NCBI GenBank assembly: GCA_900073065.1
Contig: FJOG01000015.1
Span: forward strand, 1,382,119 to 1,446,118
Origin: Phialocephala subalpina
Taxonomy: Eukaryota > Ascomycota > Leotiomycetes > Helotiales > Mollisiaceae
DNA length: 64,000 nucleotides
Direction of reading: 5' to 3'
This document shows, piece after piece, positions 4,954 through 24,207 of this stretch. The notes under the pieces are model-generated. The model did not search any database and had not been told where the DNA came from. It saw only the letters and a program-made list of their open reading frames with translations. Numbering within the stretch: the stretch's first letter is position 1; each line of letters begins with the position of its first letter. The position numbers were made by a program, and so were the translations under genes.

Positions 4954-7900
4954 TCAACCACTGGCGGGTCCTTTACGCTGCGATACTTTCCGCTCCTCCT
5001 TAGTTAAAATCTCTACCAAGAATTCCAGCTCTAGTACGCTCGCGACGTCCAACGGTGTTTGACACACAGCCAATCTGGTGCTGAGTGGTGGGAGTACATC
5101 TTTGACCTCATCATCTGTGGTGACAGTTTCTTGGAGCTCCGCCACAGAAGAATCCTCTTTGTCAATATTTGAAAGATCTTCCACTTCTAATAACTCGTAC
5201 TCTGCTGAAGTGTCCATCTCTTGAAGATATTCTTGTTCCGATGTTGAATGATCTTCGTCCTTCGCCCGAGACGTGGCGATGGACTTGGAAAGCTCAACAT
5301 ATTCGAGAATTTGTATCCAAGATTCATATTTCTTCTTGGACTTCAAGAACTCCAGGATTTGGTCGTTGTCCATAAAAGGTTCGTTGGCTTCCGCATGTGA
5401 TGGCCAAAATTCAGCCGCGTAGAGAGCGAAAGGATATTCCAACACCCGATCCCGAAGCTTTTTTTGGAGACAAGGCCCTGACGCAAATGGCTCCAAAGAC
5501 AAGTATGATAGGCAGGCATGCATAAGCCGGGTCTGAGGGAATGAAAAGTTTTGAAGCAGGGCGCTCCTGGAACGTAGCCAATCAATCAATGAGAAGTGAC
5601 GGAGTTGGAAAAAATCATTCTGGTGATCGACCACCACGAAGCCATTACCGAGGCGTATTATTTGGTCGATGTCGACGAGTCCCTCTTGGTCAAACTCGAT
5701 ATCTTGAGGCTCAATTTCAGTAGCAGCAAGCGCGTGCTGGAACTCTCGGCGGCTCATGGATCGGCCCGAAAAAGCGAGCCACGCCAGAATACGATATGAC
5801 AAGGCTGCAGTTGAAGCAGGTTGGTCTGAGATTCGAATGAATATTTCCTGATAAATATCATTCAAGGAATCCGGTGAATTAAGACACGCTTTGCGAAGAT
5901 GCTGCCGGCTGCGGGTAGTAGAAAGACGTTCCAGGAATAATACCGCGAAAAAGAATCTGCGCAGCAATTAGCTCCAAGGAGAGATCTATTTCTGTCGAGT
6001 ATGGTAGATACGTACATTCCCTGAGATTTCCTAACTACTAGTTCCTCAATTTCCAACCTCAGAGGATCATCAGTTGGGTCAAGCTGTGGGAACGCCGAAA
6101 AATTCTTCAAATTTTGTCGGACGAAAGTTCGTATGTCGTTATCAATTCTCCCAATCTGACCGTCGATACTTATTGTCAATGTGTCCGGAGTCTGAAGATT
6201 GACGATGTCAGTTTCACGCCTCGATGTTACCATCACTCTCGCGGGCTGAAATCCGGCTGTTAACTTGCGGAGCACTTCAAGGATTTTCGTTCTTGGCCCG
6301 GGCAACTCGTCCAATCCGTCGATGATTGTGTATACGGCTCTTTTGGTACTACGGAGCGTCTCAAAGAACATCCTTTCAATCTCTGAGAGAGCCGGCGGAA
6401 GATTTAATGATTGTAAACGTTTAAAACACTCTCTGACCTGAGCTGGAACGACTCCAGTGTGCTGGATGGCTTGCCTAAGCAGACTCTTGATAATATCTAG
6501 GATCTGTTGTTCATTGTTGACCTTGAAGTCGCAGTATACTAGAAGTACCAACGCCAAAGGCATGGACTTCGAGAGATACTCTGCCGCCAGGGATCTATGC
6601 GAAGACATTAGTGCGTGTGCAATCCATGAGACATCGCACGCTTACGCTAGGACCGTTTTGCCACTGCCCGCTGAAAATAGTCAACTCTGTTTTGATCAAT
6701 CCTTCAAGTATAACTTACCTCGTCCGAAGCACCACAGCTCACTATCTTTGCCTTGTGCCCATTGCTGAAAAACGGCATGATTAATAAACCATGCTCCAGT
6801 ACCCATAGCCGCGAGACGCAAATTATCGAGTAACTTGTCCGAGTTGTCTGGGGCCAGCCATTCTAAGACTGCCTTGTCGTATTGCAGGTCTTTGTTATCA
6901 AGTAGTAGTTGTACTTGATCAGAGACTTTGGAAGTGTCATTCTGAATAGTTCTGATTATTTCGTTTTTGCCAACATCAGCGCTACTTTGAGGCTCGTTAG
7001 CTTCACCAAAAGGCTGTAGGTCGCTCAAAAAGCTGCTATCTCGTCTCTGTATCTCTTGCAGATTCTGGACGCACGAAACCTTATGCCGAAGAAATTGTTG
7101 CTCGGCGTCATCTGACAGCAAATGTCGCTCAAGCGTGAGTAGCTTCGCGTGGAGACACACATTGACAGTAATGATAGCTTGGAGGAGACATTCTCTCTTC
7201 GTCTGGATATCAGAGCGGTATTTGATCCATTCGGATACTAGAGGGTGCATCGATAGCCGAAGCGTCCTAGGACCTAGGCCAGAAATTTGAAGCAAGGAGA
7301 GATCCCTGAAGTCAAGAAAAAGGTCTTCGAGCTTGAGCCAGTCCCAATCCCCATTCTGCGCAAGCAAATTCTGCAGCCATTTGGGACTTGCAATGCCATC
7401 GACAGCACCGGAAGTGGGCAAAAAGCTTAGGTCGCGTGGAACCTCGAATATTTCCTGCGATATGCTTCTGAAATCGAGGAATGACAGCATGGTGAGTAAA
7501 TTCCCCTTCTGACTTCTTGCTTCTTCAAGCTCATCTATCAACTGGAACGACATCTCCCATGTGGTGTAGACAACTCCTTTATAGTCCCACGCCCTTGGCG
7601 CCTTGGACCAAATCAGCTCTTTCCTGTCATTGTACTCTTCAATGAACCTGGAGAGCGTGAAATTGACTCGTCGTTGAATGTAAGCTCCGGCTTGGTCAAT
7701 GGCGAGTGGAAGATAGCCAAGAAGATCCACTATTCTTATCGCATCTTCCTCCTGATTCGGAAACTTTTCAACTCCACCAATCCTGTCGTAAAGCAGAGCG
7801 TGGGCCTCTGCTAAAGACATCGGAGGTACCTCGAGAACGGTACCAAGTCGAGCAAGATTGGAATTGCGGCTAGTGACTAACACTGAACCTTGAGAGGTTG

Positions 7901-9529
7901 ATGGTATATATCTGTTCAAGTCTCTAAAACCGTCAGGGTTGTCGTAGTTGTCAAAAATAAGAAGCCATGGACGGTTCCAACTCTCGATCATCTGTAACGC
8001 AAAGTCGACTCTCTCCTCGTTCGAGCCAAATGTTTGATCAGGGCTTCGTTTGATGATATCAGAGATGGCAATTAAACCCTTCTTCAATGCCTCTTCGGTA
8101 GAAGCATCCATCCAAAAAATCGCAAGAAAGAGGTGCTTTGTTTCAGCTTGTCGGCAAAAATCGATGGCAAGAGCTGTCTTGCCCTGTCCGCCCATGCCGT
8201 GGAGAATACAAACACTTGGGGTATCCTGACCCCTTTGTGACGAGAGATTTGTAATCTTGGATATCAGGTCAGGACGATGAATAAATTTAGTGGCTTGCCT
8301 GGGATAGCGATAGTATTTTCTACTACCTAACTTCGGGTCGTGCATGGCTTCTTCAACAGTGGGATCGTTGGCAGTATGTCTTCGAATCAGAATTCTTTTG
8401 ATGCCATCTACAGGATAAATTAACATCCTTACATAGCAAAGACTGCAATGGATCAGGTACCGCTTGCATCTTCAATTCTTGCAATCCAATCCATTAATCT
8501 TCCCAGAACCCTTTCATAGCCAATCTCGTTCCTAGATGAAAATTTCGTCATGTTCATATGATTTGCCGGGATTGTTGTTGAATTGTAGCCAGGTATGACA
8601 GCAGAGTCCGGAGTTACGACGCGCTGGCAAGAGTCAATTTCATTTGGTATTAAACGGAAAGAATCATACTTGCATGGCCAGTCGCAGTGACGGGTAGCTC
8701 CTCCACGAAGGCGTGTATCTTGATCTCAGGGTACCCCCTCTGCAATCGTCCTCGTACCATTGTGAGGAAACCGTTTTTTATATTTGCGAGTACCTGCGAA
8801 CGCGCATTCAAGACTTCCAAGAGTTGAGTGGTTGGTAACTTGACAATAGTGAGGCTGATGATATTCGCGACTGCAGATGCAAACTTCTGATAATCGGAGC
8901 CAGCGTTCGGGGTTCCCATGAAGGCAACACCGCGAACAGCGTCGAGAAGCTTTGCTTGAGCCTCTTCGTTGGGATTGACGCAGAGAAGCAAAGCATCCTG
9001 ACACACAAGGCCACCTAGACTATGTACCACGAAGAGAATAGGTTGTTTTGTGGTTTTCGTCCTCGCCCGCAAGCCACACATATCGTTGACAAGATTCTGC
9101 GCATGCTCCCTCACCGTATTCTGGCCGGCAGGCTTCAGCCAATGTACAACGTCAGCATCGTAGCCGTATGTGATGATTCGAGCATTCGGAATATCTGTGG
9201 CTAGCAGTGTCTTTGGCCATGGCTCAGCCGGCTTATCCGCCGTCCATGTCTTCTCTCGATGACCCGTTAGGCCGTGCAGAAACACAATACTAATACAAAC
9301 CCTATCAGCAGACGTTCAGGGCTTCTTGCATCACCAGGGCTGTGTACTCAACTACAGGAGACTCTCCTCCGCTCCAAACGTTGATGCCCAAAGGCTTCTC
9401 TGTCTCCGCGACAGCTGGCAGCGAAAGATCTTGTGAAGATCCAGCAGCAGTGGTGACTGTGCTTCCAAATGATGCTGGTGGTGTCTCTTTGGGCATCTTT
9501 TTCCTCTTAAGATTATCGAGTAGGCCCAT
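4954..9529 (-). CDS. NLR (STAND) protein: SesB hydrolase, NB-ARC and NACHT in tandem
   Basis: Seven exons (9529-9348, 9289-8674, 8623-8461, 8407-6719, 6670-6646, 6594-6016, 5956-4954) total 4257 nt and encode 1418 residues without an internal stop. Residues about 55-310 are a SesB-type alpha/beta hydrolase: VFLHGLTG oxyanion loop, VVHSLGG with nucleophile Ser151, and the SAVIPGYNS and NHM...MTKF segments typical of this NLR N-terminal domain. An NB-ARC module follows, with GMGGQGKT at 391-398, WLLIFDN at 468-474, a TSR sensor and LGYLPLAIDQAGAYI. Where TPRs usually start, a second NTPase of the NACHT type begins: AGSGKT at 884-889 and IIDGLDEL at 982-989. The C-terminus has a winged-helix-like part and stops after one ankyrin-like helix pair (TPLDVASVLELEFLVEIL), with no repeat array. 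Intron 2 (8673-8624) is GC-AG. Such proteins act in cytosolic recognition and incompatibility; the ligand is unknown. Confidence 0.88.
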
Positions 9530-14193: not shown

Positions 14194-16572
14194 TCATTCC
14201 CCACGAAAGTTCCTCAAAGCATGCATAAGAAATTGAGTCACCATAGGCCTCCCATTCTGAGTACTCAACAATTCCCACGGCACCACATTCCGAAATCTCC
14301 CTTGCCTACCCAACATCTTTACAAAAACTTCCGGCATACCATCTTGATGCTTCAAGTCCTCCAACTGCTCAATCAACACACTCTCCGGGTCATTCTGCAG
14401 CACAAATTCCAATACCAGCGCCGCTACACCTGCCATCATCGGTGTCGCAACTGATGTCCCGGTCATTACCCTCTCCACATTCGGATCAGACTCATAATTG
14501 TTGGGATGTCGAGTCCAAGCTCCTTTGATGTTCTCTCCTAAAATGCTAAAATTTTGCAGAGGCTTGGGGTCAGGGTTGAAACCGGACGGTCGTCCGTCCG
14601 CTGCCGCCGAGTTGACACAAATTACTCCAGATAGCCAAGCAGGGAAGGTGACCCTCTTCATCGTTCCATTGTTGCTTGCTGCTGCGAATAATAGCACTGG
14701 TTTTGCAAGGGCTTCTGTGATTGCGGTTTGCACTGCTTTCGAGTACCCATAGAAACCAAAGGACATGCTGATGATATCCACACCCCAGTTTTTCTTCCCT
14801 TCCTCATCCTTCCCGGTTCTGCATGCTCTCAAGATGGCTTTCGCAACAACATCTGCACTCAAATCTGCATCAAAATCCTTGGCGACTCGAGCAATGTAAA
14901 TATCGGCTTCCGGAGCAATGCGACGGAAGAGGGACGCGCAATGAGTTCCGTGTCCACATATATCATGCGCATTTCCCCCCGGGTCGAGGAAGTCTTCTCG
15001 GCTCTTTATCCGTCGAGAGGAGAAGTCTCCAGCTTGGTCCGCAGCAAAAGAAGGATGTCCGATATCGATGCCTGTATCCAAGACGGCAATTTTCACACGC
15101 TTGCAGCGAGTGCGCCGGAGTGGAGAGAGAAGCCCTTGAGTTTCTTCTTTAAGGAGGTAGAACCAGTGGTTCACAGCATTTGTGCTACCCTCATCGGTCC
15201 TACCCGGTCCGGCATCACTGAGTTGGCGAAATTGTTTGCCATCTTTAGGAGGAGAGGCTGATCTTGCTCGTCGATGGGGCGGTGTTTTGGAGTTCTCGTT
15301 GCCATTGCCTCTATCAGTGGAGTGGGCCCGTGGTCGTCCTTCCTTTATTGGATTGTTGTCTGTGGGTTTGAGATAATCTGATGGGGTCTGAGGAGTTGCC
15401 TGCGATTCTTGATAGCGCTGTGCCCATGTACTTCCAGGCCGGAATCCGCTTGGTCCCTGGTCTGGGTCAGCATCTACGATGTGTGGTGTTGGTGGACGGT
15501 TCCTTGGTCCTGATCCTATGCGAAAGGACATGGGTGGAGACTTGGAGCCATCACTGCCTGATTTGATGGACGACGTGTCGGAGCCAGCTTGGTTGATGCC
15601 GGATGCTCTCGGATCCACGTATTTGTAGGGGATTTCTAAGAGTTGGGCGGGGGTGGTAGTGTCTGTCTTGGCTGCTGGGTTGAACCCTCTGCCTCTACCT
15701 CTACCTCCTTGGCTGTTGTTCTGAGTTAAATCATTCCCTTGCGGAGGTCTCCAAGCAGGCGGCTTTACCGCGCCAGGACCGTTCCTTCCCCCTGCGGGTT
15801 GGTCGTTCTTTCCAGGACCCTTGTCATTGTCCTTCGCTCCTGAGGATTTCACTTTTCCCCCTTCTGCAGCCTTCTTATCCGCTTGCTCTCGTTTCTTCTT
15901 CCTCTCTTCTATCCTCTTGTTGTTCAGCTGTACTGCGTTCCGACTCTTGCCAATGTCTGCCTCGGGCTTGCCCAAACGAATCCTTGCATCCAAAATTTTC
16001 TGGTTGAGCGCTCTCGCCATTTCGTATTTCCAGAGCTTATTCCAGCATCCAGCAAGATCGTATCCGGCTTGAAGAGTCTCCTCGTGATCCTCTCCAAACT
16101 CAGGATGATTTCGTCGTGCATCATAATTCTTCCGGAGCAGTTCAGCAGCTTTGTTGTACTCCTCTAGAACCATATAATCACTTGCCAGACTCCGCTGGGT
16201 CTCAAGGGCACCCTTGGACGTCCCTTCGATTCGGAGTCTTGTCTCTAGAGCTTTCTCATCCAGGTCCCGTGCCTCCTGGTACAGAACCTTGACGCGTAGC
16301 TTGGCTTCTGGATTATTCTTCCCTCGATTCTTGGCCTCGTTCAAAGCTGCCAACTGACAGACAGCGGAGGCCAGAGTCTCTTGATCATACACTGTCGTCG
16401 CATGGTCTTGTCCGAAATTCGCTAGGCTCCACTCGAGATTCTCTCGGAATAGCTGCACAGCCTGGAAAAACTTCTTTTCGTCGACCAGAACTTGAGCTTT
16501 ATCGTGCCTCTCCTTGTGAGTCTCATAGTCTTTGAGCTTGCCCAAAGCAATGGATTTGTTGAGTTCGCCCAT
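14194..16572 (-). CDS. TPR-subtilase (S8 serine protease), HET-Q2-like candidate
   Basis: A single exon encodes 792 residues. Residues about 1-230 form TPR-like helix pairs (AQVLVDEKKFFQAVQLFREN, VLEEYNKAAELLRKNY, KYEMARALNQKIL), ending in a basic coiled stretch. Residues 235-470 are a disordered linker with an RGRGRG run. Residues about 490-740 are a subtilase with a complete triad: Asp499 in VLDTGID, His541 in GHGTHCAS, Ser707 in GTSVATP, and Asn634/635 in AASNNG for the oxyanion hole. No signal peptide is present, so a cytosolic protease is likely. No NB-ARC or NACHT is fused to it. The gene diverges from the gasdermin-like gene at 17812, with one small membrane protein between. In Podospora the subtilase HET-Q2 cleaves gasdermin HET-Q1; by position and type this is a candidate equivalent. 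The substrate is inferred, not shown. Confidence 0.9.
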   Translation of the reverse strand: MGELNKSIALGKLKDYETHKERHDKAQVLVDEKKFFQAVQLFRENLEWSLANFGQDHATTVYDQETLASAVCQLAALNEAKNRGKNNPEAKLRVKVLYQEARDLDEKALETRLRIEGTSKGALETQRSLASDYMVLEEYNKAAELLRKNYDARRNHPEFGEDHEETLQAGYDLAGCWNKLWKYEMARALNQKILDARIRLGKPEADIGKSRNAVQLNNKRIEERKKKREQADKKAAEGGKVKSSGAKDNDKGPGKNDQPAGGRNGPGAVKPPAWRPPQGNDLTQNNSQGGRGRGRGFNPAAKTDTTTPAQLLEIPYKYVDPRASGINQAGSDTSSIKSGSDGSKSPPMSFRIGSGPRNRPPTPHIVDADPDQGPSGFRPGSTWAQRYQESQATPQTPSDYLKPTDNNPIKEGRPRAHSTDRGNGNENSKTPPHRRARSASPPKDGKQFRQLSDAGPGRTDEGSTNAVNHWFYLLKEETQGLLSPLRRTRCKRVKIAVLDTGIDIGHPSFAADQAGDFSSRRIKSREDFLDPGGNAHDICGHGTHCASLFRRIAPEADIYIARVAKDFDADLSADVVAKAILRACRTGKDEEGKKNWGVDIISMSFGFYGYSKAVQTAITEALAKPVLLFAAASNNGTMKRVTFPAWLSGVICVNSAAADGRPSGFNPDPKPLQNFSILGENIKGAWTRHPNNYESDPNVERVMTGTSVATPMMAGVAALVLEFVLQNDPESVLIEQLEDLKHQDGMPEVFVKMLGRQGRFRNVVPWELLSTQNGRPMVTQFLMHALRNFRGE

Positions 16573-17106
16573 GTCTCACGTTCGTGGTTTGAAGGTTGAG
16601 ATGTGTCAGCGGCGATGATGCTGGATGAGAAGATGGAGGTCTTGGCCAAATTGTCCCGCTGATCCTCAGGTTGATCGTCCCCCCTGTAACGTCTCGGCTA
16701 ATGGCGGGATGCGCCTCAGTGCCCGTTCGGGCCACGAGTGGGCCTAACCTTTGCTGGTCCAGGCCAACTTTTTGATGCTATTCAGACTTCTCTTCTATCA
16801 GTGAACTCATCATAAAGATATACTTCTCTTCCTTCACGATTCACACCTCCCCTCTTGGATTCTGAGCTTCCATTCAAGCTGCAGATAAATTTCTTTTTCC
16901 GACGGTGATTTCCTGTCCTCAGCCGTCACTAGGGAAACGCCCACTGCATGAAGCCCCTGCGAATCAATATTGAGCTCACCCTTGCTACCTGTGCACCGCC
17001 CTACAAATGCACGATGACACCCCGCATCACTCTTCGACAAAACTCCCGAATCCACCAACACAGCCGCCCTTTATTGCCCAATTGCTGAGGCAATTGCGCA
17101 TTTTCA
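16573..17106. promoter_or_regulatory. Divergent intergenic region
   Basis: It separates the subtilase start at 16572 from the membrane-protein start at 17107 and should hold both promoters. The frame of the downstream gene has a TGA 18 bases upstream of its ATG. A Cys-containing open stretch at 17000-17105 in another frame could be an older exon, but I could not splice it in. Confidence 0.35.
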
Positions 17107-17598
17107 ATGCCAAACTTCCCTTTAACACCGAGAGCAGATCCGACCGACGCTGTATATAGAACTCTCACCCAAGTCTTTCCTTCCTCGACGGTTATCACGA
17201 CGATTCTGCTTGGAGACAGTAGCCCCTCATCTGCGACATCAGCACCAAGCTCGAGCTCATCGGATACACCCTCCAACGGGGTCGTCATAGGAGCAGTCAT
17301 CGGGTCGATCTTTGGCTTCTTGCTGATATTGCTGCTGATATCGTACTGTGTGCGAAGAACTCCAGATTGGGCTCCATATTTCTCAGACAGAAGTTCGTTC
17401 TCGTCTGTTTACGTTCATAATCCAAACGCCGTACCAACCCAAGCACATGTCACCGATACGACTGCGACGACGAGATTAGGCTTCAATAGGGATAAGAGAC
17501 AATTCTACTTTGAGAGGGAGAGCACGAGGGGGAATTCGATACGGCCTGTTAGCACGGAATACACGGATACTTCAGCATCTTCTGAGAGTTCGACGTGA
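17107..17598 (+). CDS. Small single-pass membrane protein with Ser-rich ectodomain
   Basis: The gene encodes 163 residues in one exon. Residues 1-56 are Ser/Thr/Pro-rich and likely O-glycosylated. One hydrophobic segment (GVVIGAVIGSIFGFLLILLLISY, about 58-80) carries the GxxxG spacing common in fungal cell-surface anchors. It is followed by a Cys-Val-Arg-Arg stop-transfer signal and a cytosolic tail of about 80 residues rich in Ser/Thr/Tyr. There is no cleavable signal peptide at this start, so either it is a signal-anchor protein or an upstream exon is missing; an in-frame TGA lies just upstream. It sits between the protease and the gasdermin-like gene, but nothing in the sequence links it to them. 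I do not recognise a named family; it is loosely like Mid2/Wsc-type membrane stubs. Confidence 0.65.
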   Translation: MPNFPLTPRADPTDAVYRTLTQVFPSSTVITTILLGDSSPSSATSAPSSSSSDTPSNGVVIGAVIGSIFGFLLILLLISYCVRRTPDWAPYFSDRSSFSSVYVHNPNAVPTQAHVTDTTATTRLGFNRDKRQFYFERESTRGNSIRPVSTEYTDTSASSESST

Positions 17599-17811
17599 AA
17601 GTTTATGTCACGTTACACAGCAAACGGATTTTGTACATACATTTTGAGAGAGATTTAGACATTCGCCACAATCGTTCTCCGCCAGGGGTCTTTCAAATTG
17701 GGCATCGTCACAAGCTTTCGAAGCCGGACATCGAGACGACATCCACCACCCCTCCGGGTCTCGCCTCGATCCAACCACTCGCCTCTCCACACCACGAGAC
17801 CAGCCACGGAA

Positions 17812-18684
17812 ATGCCTCCACCAAAAACATACTTCCTCGTACCAACTCGCGACTCTCCACCCTCCGGTCCCATCTTCTTAGGCTCCATCATCAAATCTCC
17901 CCGCTCCCCAGAACTCTGCATCAACTCCAAAACCTCACCACTCCTCACCTCCCTCGAAATCCACGAAAAAATAACCACAGACGAAACCCGGCACCTCTAC
18001 CGAGACAGCAAAGGCAAAGTATCCCTCTTTGCCGAATTCCTCAGCGGTTTGCCACTCGGTCTCGACGCTAGTGTTGGTACGAATTGGGACAATGGCGAAT
18101 TCGCCAAGTATGCGTTCAAAGAACTCGTCACGAAGCAAATATTTCCTTCTCAAGGAGAAATTGCGCTGATTTTCAAAGATGAGGCTATTCAGGGAGCTAT
18201 CAAGGACTCGAGGTTTAGGGATAATTTGTACATGATTACCGGAGTCAAGATTGCTCGTGGTGCAGATGTCCTGATAGGCAAACTTCGAGAACGAGGTGGG
18301 AACCTACACTTCGGCGCAGACCTCACTCCCGTCTCTGTTCCGATCAAAGTCGGACCGGATCTAGATGTGACGAGAGGGCACGGACAATCGGTTGAAGAGA
18401 AACATGCTGGCGAATTTGTGTTTGCGTACAGATTGAGAGAAATCAAATACAGGAGACGGAAAGTCGAAGAACAGAGGGAATATCTCAAAGGTGATCTGTT
18501 CGGGCATAACGAGGGCAAGGGGTGGGGAAAGGGAGAGAAGGTAGAAGTGGAGGAAGAGGCGGAGTTGATTGGATTAGGGAGTGGGGATGTTGGGGTTGAA
18601 GACTGGGATGCTGAGGATGTTGAGGCTGTGGATGATGATGGGGAGGAGGTGAGATGTGTTGTATTTGAGGATGAGATTGTGTAG
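17812..18684 (+). CDS. Gasdermin-like pore-forming protein, HET-Q1/RCD-1 type (candidate)
   Basis: One exon encodes 290 residues from MPPPKTYF. An upstream in-frame ATG at 17698 would add 38 basic residues that look like leader sequence, so I prefer 17812. Residues 1-230 show the gasdermin N-domain layout as I know it: an opening extended segment, an amphipathic strand region, the strand DNLYMITGVKIARG at 137-150, a Gly/Val/Pro-rich part (LTPVSVPIKVGPD, 171-183), and the strand FVFAYRLREI at 202-211. No signal peptide or classic membrane helix is present, as expected for a soluble pore precursor. Residues about 231-290 are very acidic and resemble the short removable tail of fungal gasdermins; Phe230-Gly231 lies near the position where HET-Q1 is cut. 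Family membership needs a profile search; the alternative is an unnamed conserved fungal family. Confidence 0.68.
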   Translation: MPPPKTYFLVPTRDSPPSGPIFLGSIIKSPRSPELCINSKTSPLLTSLEIHEKITTDETRHLYRDSKGKVSLFAEFLSGLPLGLDASVGTNWDNGEFAKYAFKELVTKQIFPSQGEIALIFKDEAIQGAIKDSRFRDNLYMITGVKIARGADVLIGKLRERGGNLHFGADLTPVSVPIKVGPDLDVTRGHGQSVEEKHAGEFVFAYRLREIKYRRRKVEEQREYLKGDLFGHNEGKGWGKGEKVEVEEEAELIGLGSGDVGVEDWDAEDVEAVDDDGEEVRCVVFEDEIV

Positions 18685-19817: not shown

Positions 19818-20525
19818 CTAGCAACTCCTCCACAAGAATGCAAAATCCATAACACCCGAATCATACAAGGACCCAGTCCCCGTCTGCGTAACACTCAACT
19901 CATTCACAACATTGATCGGACTCGGACTCCCACACGGACTCCAAAGATCCGTTGTCTCGAGATGCGTCAATTTATACACTGTGAACTTCTCATTCAGTGT
20001 CCCTTGGAGCGTATCGTCGAAAGACTTCTGCGCATTTCCCTCTTTTCCAGCTTTAGCTATTCGGTTTTCTCCATCTGGATCCGGGGATGGAGACGAACCT
20101 GTGAAGTACACCGTCATGTTGTGCGTCCCGTTGACTCCGTATCCTAGGTTCGTGTATCCGCTGTACGTGCTGTTGACGAGTGTGTACTGGAGGTTCGCGG
20201 AGTAGTTCAGGTTGATGTTTATTTGGCAGGCTTTGCGTTGGTCTGTGACGGAGGCATTGGATCCCACGGCCGCTGTGAAGCCGTCTATGATGGCCATAAA
20301 TCTGCCATTGATGTCAAAACTTGGCGAGTTCGAGGTTGTTGAGAATTCGGCAACTCGCCTCCAAGGAGTGATCAGTTCCGCAAACTTCAACGCACCCTGA
20401 GGACACCCTGACCCCCCGTACGCAAGCTGCGTGAGAGACACACCACTCAAATCCTGTACTCCCGGAGTCTGAGCCCCTACCACCCCCAAAGAACCCAATA
20501 TCAAAAGTCCTAAAGACAGATGCAT
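19818..20525 (-). CDS. Secreted DUF4360 family protein
   Basis: The protein has 235 residues with a signal peptide (MHLSLGLLILGSLGVVGAQ). An upstream ATG at 20579 would add 18 residues before this signal and lies only about 20 bases from the TATA box, so I take 20525. After the signal come LTQLAYGGSGCP, a beta-sandwich-like core with FMAIIDGFTAAVG, the RKACQINI motif, several NxS/T glycosylation sites (NASV, NYSA, NSTY, NGTH), and a C-terminal CGSPSPINVVNELSV region ending in Cys. This order matches DUF4360, a family of secreted proteins common in ascomycetes and of unknown biochemical role. Single exon. Confidence 0.8.
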   Translation of the reverse strand: MHLSLGLLILGSLGVVGAQTPGVQDLSGVSLTQLAYGGSGCPQGALKFAELITPWRRVAEFSTTSNSPSFDINGRFMAIIDGFTAAVGSNASVTDQRKACQININLNYSANLQYTLVNSTYSGYTNLGYGVNGTHNMTVYFTGSSPSPDPDGENRIAKAGKEGNAQKSFDDTLQGTLNEKFTVYKLTHLETTDLWSPCGSPSPINVVNELSVTQTGTGSLYDSGVMDFAFLWRSC

Positions 20526-20598
20526 CGTCTGAAACAAGATTCCGTGCAAAAGGAGAAAATCCAAACGTAAAATCGACAAGTTTCGTGTTTGGCTTCGG

Positions 20599-20607
20599 TA
20601 TATATAT
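20599..20607 (-). promoter_or_regulatory. TATA box of the DUF4360 gene
   Basis: An alternating TATATATAT run lies about 75 bases upstream of the ATG at 20525, a normal distance for a fungal core promoter with a short 5' leader. Confidence 0.5.
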
Positions 20608-20999
20608 TCTCTCGGAAGATTACCCTCGGATCACGTCAACCGCTGTCAAATCTGATCAAGTTAGGCCATTTCCAATATGGAGTTTATGAGATACGCGTGG
20701 TAAATGTTTTAGCCTGAGATGATGGATCCTTGTGGGACGTCGAATGTAGGCACGGAAGTGAAAAACTCTCCGTCGTATGAATAGAACTGCCCTGCATGTC
20801 CGGAAAGAGGCACGATATATTTGAGTTGGTGGCGTTGATGTGGAGAGCAGAAGGAGGTCGGTGCATGTGACTCGGTCTTGTACCTGGTCCATCCTCTTCC
20901 CTTCCGCCCTCGCTTCTCCTGGAATCCTGGCGTTCGATATGTCTTCTCAACATGATGCTCCGTATTTCTCATCTACATCTCCTTGACAGAGGAATCATG
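20608..20999. other. Intergenic, no gene seen
   Basis: Short overlapping minus-strand frames at 20656-20972 show no domain. This is upstream sequence of the DUF4360 gene and 3' sequence of the second NLR. Confidence 0.4.
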
Positions 21000-23707
21000 C
21001 TAATTGTCCAAAGTAAAATCAACTTCCGGTACAGTCATCGGAAATTCGCTAACCTCGTCGAAGATGAGATAATCCTTTCCTTGGGAAGTTGTAAGGAAGT
21101 TAAATTCGTCAACATTGTCATAAAACCTATTCCCACCACCGTCAACGACTATTTCACCCCACCAATGCGAACCGATGACTCGATCAAGCTCCAGATTCAG
21201 TGAGAGGCAGGGCTCGGATGCTGGTATTTTCAGGTGTTCCACTTTGATCGAGATTTCAGTACATCGAGATAATTTTTTGGATCGACAGAAACTTTTGCTC
21301 GATGGTGGTTCTGAAAGACCCCATTGTTTCAACTCCGTGATATAGCTCATGAGAAGTGCTACGCAAGGGTCAAAGCACAAAGCTTTAGCTAGCAAGCCTT
21401 CCCATACCTTCGGCTGCTCTAGGTAGTCCCGGACAGTTCGGTGCAAGTAGAATATTTTGAGCGGTTCAGTTTCCGGGCCAGTCTCTTCGCTGTACTTGGA
21501 GATCTTGCCGGGAGGGGGTACATTCTTGTCCAGGTTATTGCGGGTAACAGTAGGAGCCGGATTTGGTACATCTAGGACTGTCGTCTCGGAATGGTAGAAG
21601 CCCCCACCGTGCTTCCTCCTGTGTCTGAGTTTCAGAGGCTTAGGGGCAAGGTGGTGTTGTTCCTCGCATTTTCTCTTATTGTTCTGGCCGTTGGAAGCGC
21701 GGGAATCTTCCTTGGATGACTCCTCTGAAAGCATGTCCTGCTCAAGGCTTGGCGTTGGATCGTTCCTCAAAACTTCAAGCAGTCCCTTGCATCTGCTGTT
21801 GAGCCGTGCATTCATCCTCTTCAAAGTCGCTTTCTGCTTGGCTTCGGTAGAGTCTGTTACTGCAGCAGAGATCGTCATTTCCATGTCTATCACAGCTTGA
21901 TGATCCAAAGTTCGCAGGGCGCGCTCGAGTGTTGCAAGATCTAGATCGTAGCCGCTCCTCCGGAAAATCTGGATCATTTGAGAGGCCTCCTCAGCGTCCA
22001 ATGGATCAATACTATTCAGCATATGATCATACAGGGTTTCGAGGTCTGATGGGATCGCTTCCAGCCGCCTGCGTAAATGGACGATGCCGTCGCCGTTGCG
22101 AAGGCCGTTGATGAGAGACTTGACGACCAATACCACCCATAGAAACACACCATCCGCCTTGTTAACCAGTTCTTCGATCAACCCTGACGCGCCCCCGGGA
22201 TCTTCATCAAGAAGATCCTGCAAGACAGGGTTCCTCTCCAATCTGTCCTCAACATAAAGCTTTATATCGTCGTGCGTCATATCCTGCACTTTCAACCCGG
22301 GGGCGTCGTGATAGATGGTTTGGAAGGTGGGCCAGGGTCTGCTGGAAAGACAGAACTTCGCGTGCGCCGAAATTTCGGACAGATCCTTAAAATATTGGGC
22401 AATTTCTTCAGGGTCTCCTTCGTATTCATCTAAACCATCAATAAAGAAGCACATCTTCAGTTGCTGGCTTGCACATAAGGCGAGCCGAGTGAAAGCCTTC
22501 TGCAGCTGCGCCAATGACCATGTCATGGTGCCGATGGGCAGATCGTTAGCAGCCAATTCGGATTTATTTTTCCACTCCTCTGGAAAGACATGAGAAACAA
22601 GAGTTCTATGATCCTGGAGCACACTGAAGAGCAGAGACCGAAGCAGCCCAAGTTGCGATCGCTGCTCTGGGACACCACTGTTCCAGAAGAAGAACGCGGC
22701 CACCACGAGCTGTGAATGTCCGGACCACAACTCGAGATTGCGTTGAGTGAGATCATTATGCCAAATAAACCTCATGAGAGTCGATTTTCCAGATGCAGCT
22801 TTGCCTTGTATCCAATAGATTCCATTCCTTTTTGATAGCCATTCGATAAAGTTGTCCCATGGCTTCTCGACAGATCTTGGATCGCGGAACGCCCAAAGGA
22901 AAGTTTCCTTGTGTGCCTCGGCGACTCTTTCATGTCGATGATTCATCTCGGGGAACCGAAGACTTTCTAGAAGAGCGAGATCAACCCGAAGGCGACGTTT
23001 CTCCCCATCCTTTGCGACAAATGCAGCACGACTCTTCGCGTGCTCGGCCTTGTCAGATTCTCTGAGTGACTCAAACCCCCTTCGAAGATATTCTCTTGTT
23101 TCGCTACTGGATATGACGACGGAATCGATGATCTTTCGAGTATTCTTGTCGAGCTTCTCAAAGCGGGAGTGTTGTTGTATGGACAAATTATCGAGTTTCT
23201 GGCTGTTCGAACATCGTGCGTTAGAATGGAGCAAAAGTCTGCACGGTAAATAGCCACGAACCTTAGAATCTCCAGTATATGAGTATCAAGCTCTGCTCTC
23301 AGGGCCTGCAGTCGTTTTGCCATTTCGTCAATTGCCTGCTTCGACCAGACAGTCTTCAAAGCCTGCCGAAAGCTTTTCCATTTTCGCTTGTCCGACCATG
23401 TCGGAACTTCCAATTTTCCTAACCGGCGTATCAGTTCATCGGATGCCTCTGCACACTCTTTGCAAATGTCCCCCAGTCGAGAGTATGCTTCCTTATTTTC
23501 AGCACTCTGGCTCTTGTTTGCCTGTTTCAACCTGCCAGTCATCTGCTTGAGACGAGTTGTAACGGTTTCTGCTTTTGCATTTTCCTCGAGAATGCCATTA
23601 TTGGATCTGTACAGTTCTTTGCTCTTGGAGACAATCTTGAGAGAAAAGTCAACAAGCTGGATAACAGAGCCTGCAACAGACAAGGCTGTGAGTGGGTCGA
23701 TGGGCAT
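21000..23707 (-). CDS. NLR (STAND) protein: Helo-like N-terminus and NACHT, no repeats
   Basis: Two exons (23707-23262 and 23202-21000) total 2649 nt and encode 882 residues. Residues 1-150 match the fungal STAND N-terminal type (opening MPIDPLTALSVAGSVIQLVDF, then coiled helices), a Helo-like signalling domain. Residues about 270-440 are the NACHT NTPase, with Walker A GKAASGKST at 282-290, an FFIDGLDEYEG Walker B and an SSRPW sensor. A winged-helix-like segment follows (IFRRSGYDLDLATLERAL). Residues about 620-700 are a charged, low-complexity insert with an RHRRKHGGG patch, after which the conserved FYLHRTVRDYLEQP motif resumes. The protein ends about 170 residues later without ankyrin, WD40 or TPR repeats, so no usual ligand-sensing array is present. 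It lies about 2.3 kb beyond the gasdermin-like gene. Confidence 0.88.
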
Positions 23708-24207
23708 TTCGAGGGTAAAGAGGTGGGCTCGTATGCGTATATATGCATATATGTCAGGAGAGGAAGATCTTCAAGTGCGTCTATGATAAAGCGAACTCCT
23801 GGGCAGCATCAGGAGAAAAATTGATTTTGATGTTGTCGTGTCATTGCACAGCCGCACTTCAAGCCTCGTGAAAGTCCTACAGCCCGGAAGTCCCGTCGCG
23901 CAGGGTTTGATTCGCAGCTGCCCTTTTACCCGAGCGGCAAGGCTTGCAATGACTCGAGCTTATTGGTCGAAGTCTCTGGAACGATTTACAGCAAGATTCA
24001 AAAGCAGCAGGATGCAACGATTGCAAGAAGTGATGTTGACAGTAGGGAAGCAGATTTTAATTCCACGAAACAAAAGCAAGGATAAGTTCGAGAACGCCCG
24101 CTTGGGACATCTGGATGCTTTTGCTGCCAGATATGCCTTGGTGAAGATGGATGAAACGGAGCTGGGCAGAAACTTGCATTGGTATCCTATAACATCCTTT
24201 CCAACAA
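23708..24207. promoter_or_regulatory. Upstream region of the second NLR
   Basis: A TATATATGCATATAT stretch lies near 23738-23752, about 30-45 bases before the NLR start. The 131-codon plus-strand frame at 23838-24233 runs into the antisense of the phosphatase gene and looks like chance. Confidence 0.4.

Follow-up and report, generated by a model that had tools for sequence, protein, structure and literature searches.

Do a protease gene and a neighbouring gasdermin-like gene of the fungus Phialocephala subalpina act together in cell death? The question is raised by a stretch of 64,000 nucleotides (contig FJOG01000015.1 of assembly GCA_900073065.1; C39:1382119-1446118 in our naming), hereafter called the window. 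It belongs to a genome of 68.1 Mb in 119 contigs, whose loci we name by contig (C15, C47 etc.). Within the window, two divergent genes with start codons 1,239 bp apart encode a subtilase with N-terminal tetratricopeptide repeats (TPRs) and a protein with gasdermin-like features (Table 1); gene coordinates, adjacency (1.2 kb) and orientation are all as the initial annotation had them. We consider it probable, with good confidence, that the two genes form a module for regulated cell death, of the kind in which a fungal gasdermin is paired with a subtilase.

This kind of system is already known. In Podospora anserina, the gasdermin HET-Q1 is activated by the subtilase HET-Q2. Cleaved fungal gasdermins carry a short C-terminal tail, not a large repressor domain, and bacterial gasdermin operons likewise combine an adjacent protease with a short C-terminal inhibitory peptide. 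RCD-1 of Neurospora crassa acts as two co-expressed alleles, with no proteolysis. What makes the present locus a variant is the TPR end of its protease, which lacks a nucleotide-binding switch, and its membership in a repertoire of 13 pairs.

The identity of the 290-residue product was set beforehand as the main point on which the proposal could fall. Searched as a single sequence against the PDB, it has RCD-1-1 as its sole match at E<=10 (E 1.2e-4). A profile of the nine intact paralogs found in this genome matches RCD-1-1 (1.2e-20), RCD-1-2 (7.1e-20) and the HET-Q1 pore 9uv9 (7.7e-17); bacterial gasdermins come next, with sequence similarity under significance (7n51, E 0.11; 7n50, E 0.81). 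A structural model based on the alignment agrees with gasdermin identity (mean predicted local distance difference test, pLDDT, 55.7; predicted template modelling score, pTM, 0.52). It has the gasdermin N-domain fold with long beta-hairpins, the long strands covering residues 57-76, 85-101, 151-171 and 178-199 (pLDDT about 50-60 there). A single-sequence AlphaFold model (pLDDT 32) was discarded, and only the alignment-based model entered the fold searches, in which gasdermins hold ranks 1-14 of Foldseek and ranks 1-15 of VIA-align. In the Foldseek list, as in the profile search, bacterial gasdermins come next, and HET-Q1 (9uv9) is not among the best 50 rows of either search. No Pfam family was listed for the product at E<=5, and the nine-member alignment drew two stray families in one member each (E 0.033 and 0.067). 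Judged by profile and modelled fold, the product is a fungal gasdermin of the RCD-1/HET-Q1 family. Among solved structures, RCD-1-1 and RCD-1-2 are its best relatives in sequence and structure; it differs from them by its acidic tail and by the protease that partners it.

The partner is encoded by a minus-strand open reading frame spanning 14194-16575, with the first Met at 16572. Its catalytic Asp, His and Ser were all located in their motifs, and the oxyanion-hole Asn is present in AASNNG. When residues 1-230 are scanned alone, TPR_12 matches over its cut-off (E 2.4e-8, 34.5 bits against 30.1); in the full-length scan it stays under the cut-off at 27.6 bits. The nephrocystin-3 TPR model reaches 1.8e-6 on the same residues, far under its own cut-off. 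All 12 PDB matches of this part at E<=0.1 are kinesin light chains, the best being kinesin light chain 1 (E 2e-4). Neither NACHT, NB-ARC nor DUF7580 is listed for the 792 residues in the full-length Pfam scan at E<=5, and reading by eye shows neither a signal peptide nor a membrane segment. Thus the intact triad, the TPR-like repeats and the missing nucleotide-binding oligomerization domain of the protease, all previously read from the letters, were recovered. Elsewhere in the genome the TPR part has 7 other matches at E<=0.01, on C93, C61, C108 and C52, none of which falls at any listed place of peptidase family S8.

An argument for a functional link is that the pairing recurs. Two query searches for gasdermin loci returned an identical set of 12, the focal one included, and a subtilase adjoins the gasdermin at every one of them (tblastn of the focal subtilase, 11/11 others plus the focal locus). 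In its within-genome form, the second condition that could have refuted the proposal, gasdermin and protease genes standing apart, was therefore not borne out. The 68.1 Mb hold at least about 32 S8 loci (28 listed and 4 more, both lower bounds), from which simple arithmetic gives a chance proximity within 5 kb of about 0.5% per gene. Since 12/12 loci compare with this expectation, the adjacency is not due to chance. From the protease side, a profile scan covered seven stretches (C46, C64, C34, C119, C8:422593, C51:733831 and C59) among the S8 loci without a query-found gasdermin; five hold relatives of the focal subtilase and two hold other S8 loci, and 13 further such loci lie outside the scan. 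Of these stretches C119 alone has an adjoining gasdermin, split in two (E 3.9e-6 for one piece, 1.5e-5 for the other), which makes a 13th pair. A second pair, C39b, lies 48 kb off on the same contig (C39:1448072). An intact gasdermin frame is present in nine of the approximately 13 pairs.

The next question is where the protease might cut. In the alignment of the nine intact paralogs, Gly227 is invariant, and Phe or Tyr stands three residues past it, at the position of Phe230, in eight. The conserved glycine lies 16-19 residues past FAYRL in the seven of nine paralogs with both marks correctly placed. The automatic tail finder set FAYRL at a wrong place in C55 and C90 and, in C45, took GEVYN for KGATML, so that the charge of the C45 tail includes a few residues too many at its start; the motif counts given here come from the alignment. 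By the HMMER alignment, FAYR begins at residue 204 in HET-Q1 and in the focal protein alike. With the HET-Q1 pore chain 232 residues long as deposited, Phe230-Gly231 falls about where that chain ends. The net charge is +4 for residues 1-230 and -18 for residues 231-290, 37% of which are Asp or Glu; the acidic tail of about 60 residues noticed earlier is thus real, and it takes the place of a large repressor domain. In every one of the nine paralogs the part past the motif is acidic (net -12 to -22). The model has pLDDT <50 throughout 232-290, and also in four short segments within the body. The motif conserved around the predicted cut, together with the recurring pairing, leads us to infer that the focal protease cuts the focal gasdermin.

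The ends of the tails resemble each other as well. Over the C-terminal 22 residues, compared among 10 copies (without C47, C90 and C119), the mean best 10-mer score is 15.3 versus 11.8 after shuffling (s.d. 0.7), and 0/200 shuffles reach the real score. The likeness consists chiefly of a strand such as EVRCVVF, by eye missing in C55 and C6, and could stem from common descent alone. We propose that this strand might serve as an inhibitory plug.

Table 1. Features of the focal locus (positions in the window) and the other pairs of the genome
Feature	Position	Strand	Basis or remark
TPR-subtilase gene	14194..16572	-	792 aa, single open frame
Peptidase_S8 catalytic domain, residues 491-723	14404..15102	-	Pfam E 3.7e-25
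Catalytic Ser707 (GTSVATP)	14452..14454	-	read from sequence
Catalytic His541 (GHGTH)	14950..14952	-	read from sequence
Catalytic Asp499 (VLDTG)	15076..15078	-	read from sequence
Long linker rich in Gly/Pro/Ser/Asn, probably disordered, about residues 230-460	15193..15885	-	by eye; no Pfam match listed
Kinesin-light-chain-like TPR region, residues 98-209	15946..16281	-	TPR_12 and PDB matches
Ser-rich, single-pass-membrane-like open frame, candidate gene between the two genes	17089..17598	+	open reading frame list
Gasdermin gene	17812..18684	+	290 aa, single open frame
Gasdermin pore-forming body (predicted), residues 1-230	17812..18501	+	profile, model, fold searches
Predicted cut region YLKGDLFG, Phe230-Gly231 at 18499-18504	18481..18504	+	paralog alignment; position of cut inferred
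Acidic C-terminal tail, residues 231-290, predicted inhibitory piece to be cut off	18502..18681	+	charge count, model
Hydrophobic C-terminal strand EVRCVVF inside the tail	18646..18666	+	similar ends in several paralogs
Twelve other pairs			L017 C51, L018 C39b, L019 C14, L020 C55, L021 C8, L022 C87, L023 C15, L024 C47, L025 C90, L026 C6, L027 C45, L031 C119

We suggest the following course of events. The gasdermin would be made as an inactive precursor of 290 residues, its globular body ending at about residue 230 and held inactive by the acidic tail. The subtilase next door, a cytosolic protein, would sense a trigger by its TPR end and, once active, would cut the gasdermin near Phe230-Gly231. 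Released from the tail, the body might then oligomerise in membranes by means of its two long beta-hairpins and kill the cell. With HET-Q1/HET-Q2 the locus shares the gasdermin body recognised by profile, the short C-terminal tail, the adjacent subtilase with intact triad, and a motif after FAYR at about the distance where the deposited HET-Q1 chain ends. The two differ in the TPRs and long linker of the focal protease and in the divergent gene order; the N-terminus of HET-Q2 lies outside this comparison. Bacterial gasdermin operons are alike in joining a gasdermin with an adjacent protease and in standing next in the profile and fold lists; their sequences are unlike the focal one in that the similarity is under significance.

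How the focal protease relates to the other gasdermin-partner proteases was read from their N-terminal parts. DUF7580 is found over cut-off, upstream of S8, in 9/12 of the other partner proteases. Among the remaining ones, C8 has it under cut-off (23.1 of 27 bits) and C15 shows weak NPHP3_N only (E 0.04); C47, a duplicate of C15, was outside the DUF7580 scan. The focal protease has TPRs where most partners have DUF7580, so that at least two, probably three N-terminal types exist in the 13 pairs. Of the initial name "HET-Q2-type" for this protease, the points covered here are the S8 triad and the gasdermin adjacency, both present; the DUF7580 of most other partner proteases is not listed for it.

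As for the catalytic part, 15 other related subtilases match on either side of focal residue 564-574, and in 13 of them S8 is split into separate matches past that place, likely by an intron; a sixteenth, C8:422593, matched in the second part only. The match is unbroken in C15, C47 and the focal gene alone. These three proteases group in the S8 tree of 11 rows (92/93, not starred), and in the 14-row tree they stand together with C46, which has DUF7580 (98/96). A clade of the three corresponding gasdermins is not rejected (approximately unbiased test, p-AU 0.52), which is no demonstration of that clade. On the simplest reading, these pairs would form a sub-lineage in which the protease, having lost both the break and DUF7580, gained different N-terminal parts. 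The trees of both families are star-like, with 1/9 and 2/11 inner branches starred. The gasdermin tree is built without C119 and has C90, C87 and C8 as downstream pieces only; the protease trees are built without C90, C34 and C8:422593, the 11-row tree also without C46, C64 and C119.

Put together, these observations allow a broader model, which we offer tentatively and would rate somewhat below an even chance. About 13 private protease-gasdermin locks, nine of them with an intact gasdermin frame, would share one chassis and differ in swappable sensor ends of the protease: DUF7580, a degenerate end resembling STAND (signal transduction ATPases with numerous domains), and, in the focal gene, kinesin-light-chain-like TPRs followed by a disordered linker. 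The focal protease would come from the sub-lineage without exon break and DUF7580; what triggers it would be a peptide or a complex to which its TPRs bind, with no nucleotide-binding switch, and the beta-strand of the tail would plug the body until it is cut. The present case shows that protease-gasdermin pairing, known from one or a few studied fungal systems, can be a repeated and expanded repertoire within a single genome, in which the N-terminal end of the protease is swapped while protease and pore are kept. Such a repertoire presents a natural series for studying the triggers of the proteases, the specificity between protease and gasdermin, and whether TPRs can replace the switch of NOD-like receptors (NLRs).

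Several points weigh against the proposed module. The model of the gasdermin is of modest confidence, and its Foldseek template modelling scores to the two best RCD-1 matches are 0.41-0.43 by query and 0.52-0.54 by target. The residue after the conserved aromatic is Gly in 6/9 paralogs only, with Asn in C39b, Thr in C6 and Leu in C45. Among the 13 pairs the focal one alone is divergent, the twelve others being convergent or tandem, and its spacing is the widest; an open frame that the initial annotation did not mention sits between its two genes; this frame has weak matches to membrane-segment families and none stronger, and its codon-bias score is about 0, as is that of the S8 part by the same scoring. 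The gasdermin copies of C8, C87 and C90 carry in-frame stops or breaks (one in-frame TAG each in C8 and C87, several stops in C90); they seem to be decaying, with an unseen intron possible in each case.

Two more points on this side come from the frames duplicated along with C15 and C47 and from the distances between copies. For the duplicates C15 and C47, the ratio of nonsynonymous to synonymous substitution rates (one sequence pair, no significance test) is 0.29 over the body of the gasdermin and 0.76 over the tail; in the protease, the S8 frame has 0.59 and the N-terminal frame 0.33. Both proteins look constrained, the tail and the protease more loosely; however, co-duplicated neighbour frames give 0.31 and 0.49, so the constraint is not special to the pair. 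The duplicated block also carries an AAA ATPase with fungal AAA lid domain and an unknown frame of 280 aa. Distances between gasdermins correlate with those between proteases over 11 loci (r 0.55, p 0.006; C90 and C119 left out). Without the recent duplicate C47 the correlation is weak (r 0.38, p 0.06); for the 8 intact loci without C47 it is r 0.50, p 0.036; without both C15 and C47 it is r 0.32, p 0.17. One-to-one co-evolution of the pairs is not claimed, because the correlation falls once recent duplicates are dropped.

The trigger may be either a genetically different fungal partner (heterokaryon incompatibility) or an invader, i.e. a virus, a bacterium or a competing fungus. In the latter case the same pair would be an immune module and not an incompatibility locus. 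The 13 pairs with their several protease N-terminal types resemble a receptor repertoire, as do the NLR-type genes in the vicinity (6696-8471 and 21000-23770). Such features are equally found among fungal genes for non-self recognition; we regard an invader as a serious candidate, though the somewhat less probable of the two. A different explanation is that the genes are mere neighbours, the gasdermin being activated, if at all, without a protease, as is RCD-1, or by another subtilase of the genome. The spacing of 1.24 kb, the divergent order and the intervening open frame would suit this explanation, and related subtilases elsewhere could act in trans. Given the recurrence of subtilases at all query-found gasdermin loci and the low chance of such proximity, we hold it to be quite improbable. 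Least probable of all is that the protease is an antidote which degrades the gasdermin, so that its loss brings death: tight pairing is compatible with either sign of action, yet a conserved motif between pore body and acidic tail fits removal of an inhibitor, the large N-terminal parts of the proteases fit regulated activation, and the known precedent is activation. The proposed module, in which the subtilase activates the gasdermin, is the reading that we retain.

Other loci bear on the extent of the repertoire. Beside C64, the frame L029:3033-3890 (+, 286 aa) looks by eye like a very divergent gasdermin: it has an LGSVI start as well as an acidic tail, and the gene convergent to it is a DUF7580-subtilase (L029:4289-6455, -). 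With 2.9 bits by profile, an hhalign probability of 3.6% and no PDB match, it was not counted; it could be a gasdermin past the reach of the profile. In L030:1062-5526 (+), HET (weak, below cut-off), NPHP3_N and an S8-like stretch follow in series on one strand, possibly an NLR-like subtilase or a remnant of one, and the profile found no gasdermin within the L030 stretch. The DUF7580-subtilase of L028 (C46:1795000-1804900), related to the focal clade, has no gasdermin by profile in its 9.9 kb.

Turning to the surroundings of the focal pair, the NLR-type gene at 6696-8471 (-) encodes an NB-ARC/NACHT protein and that at 21000-23770 (-) an NPHP3_N/DUF7791 protein; the frame upstream of the latter is SesA-like, by a match below cut-off. 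A DUF4360 protein is encoded at 19818-20630 (-; E 7e-28).

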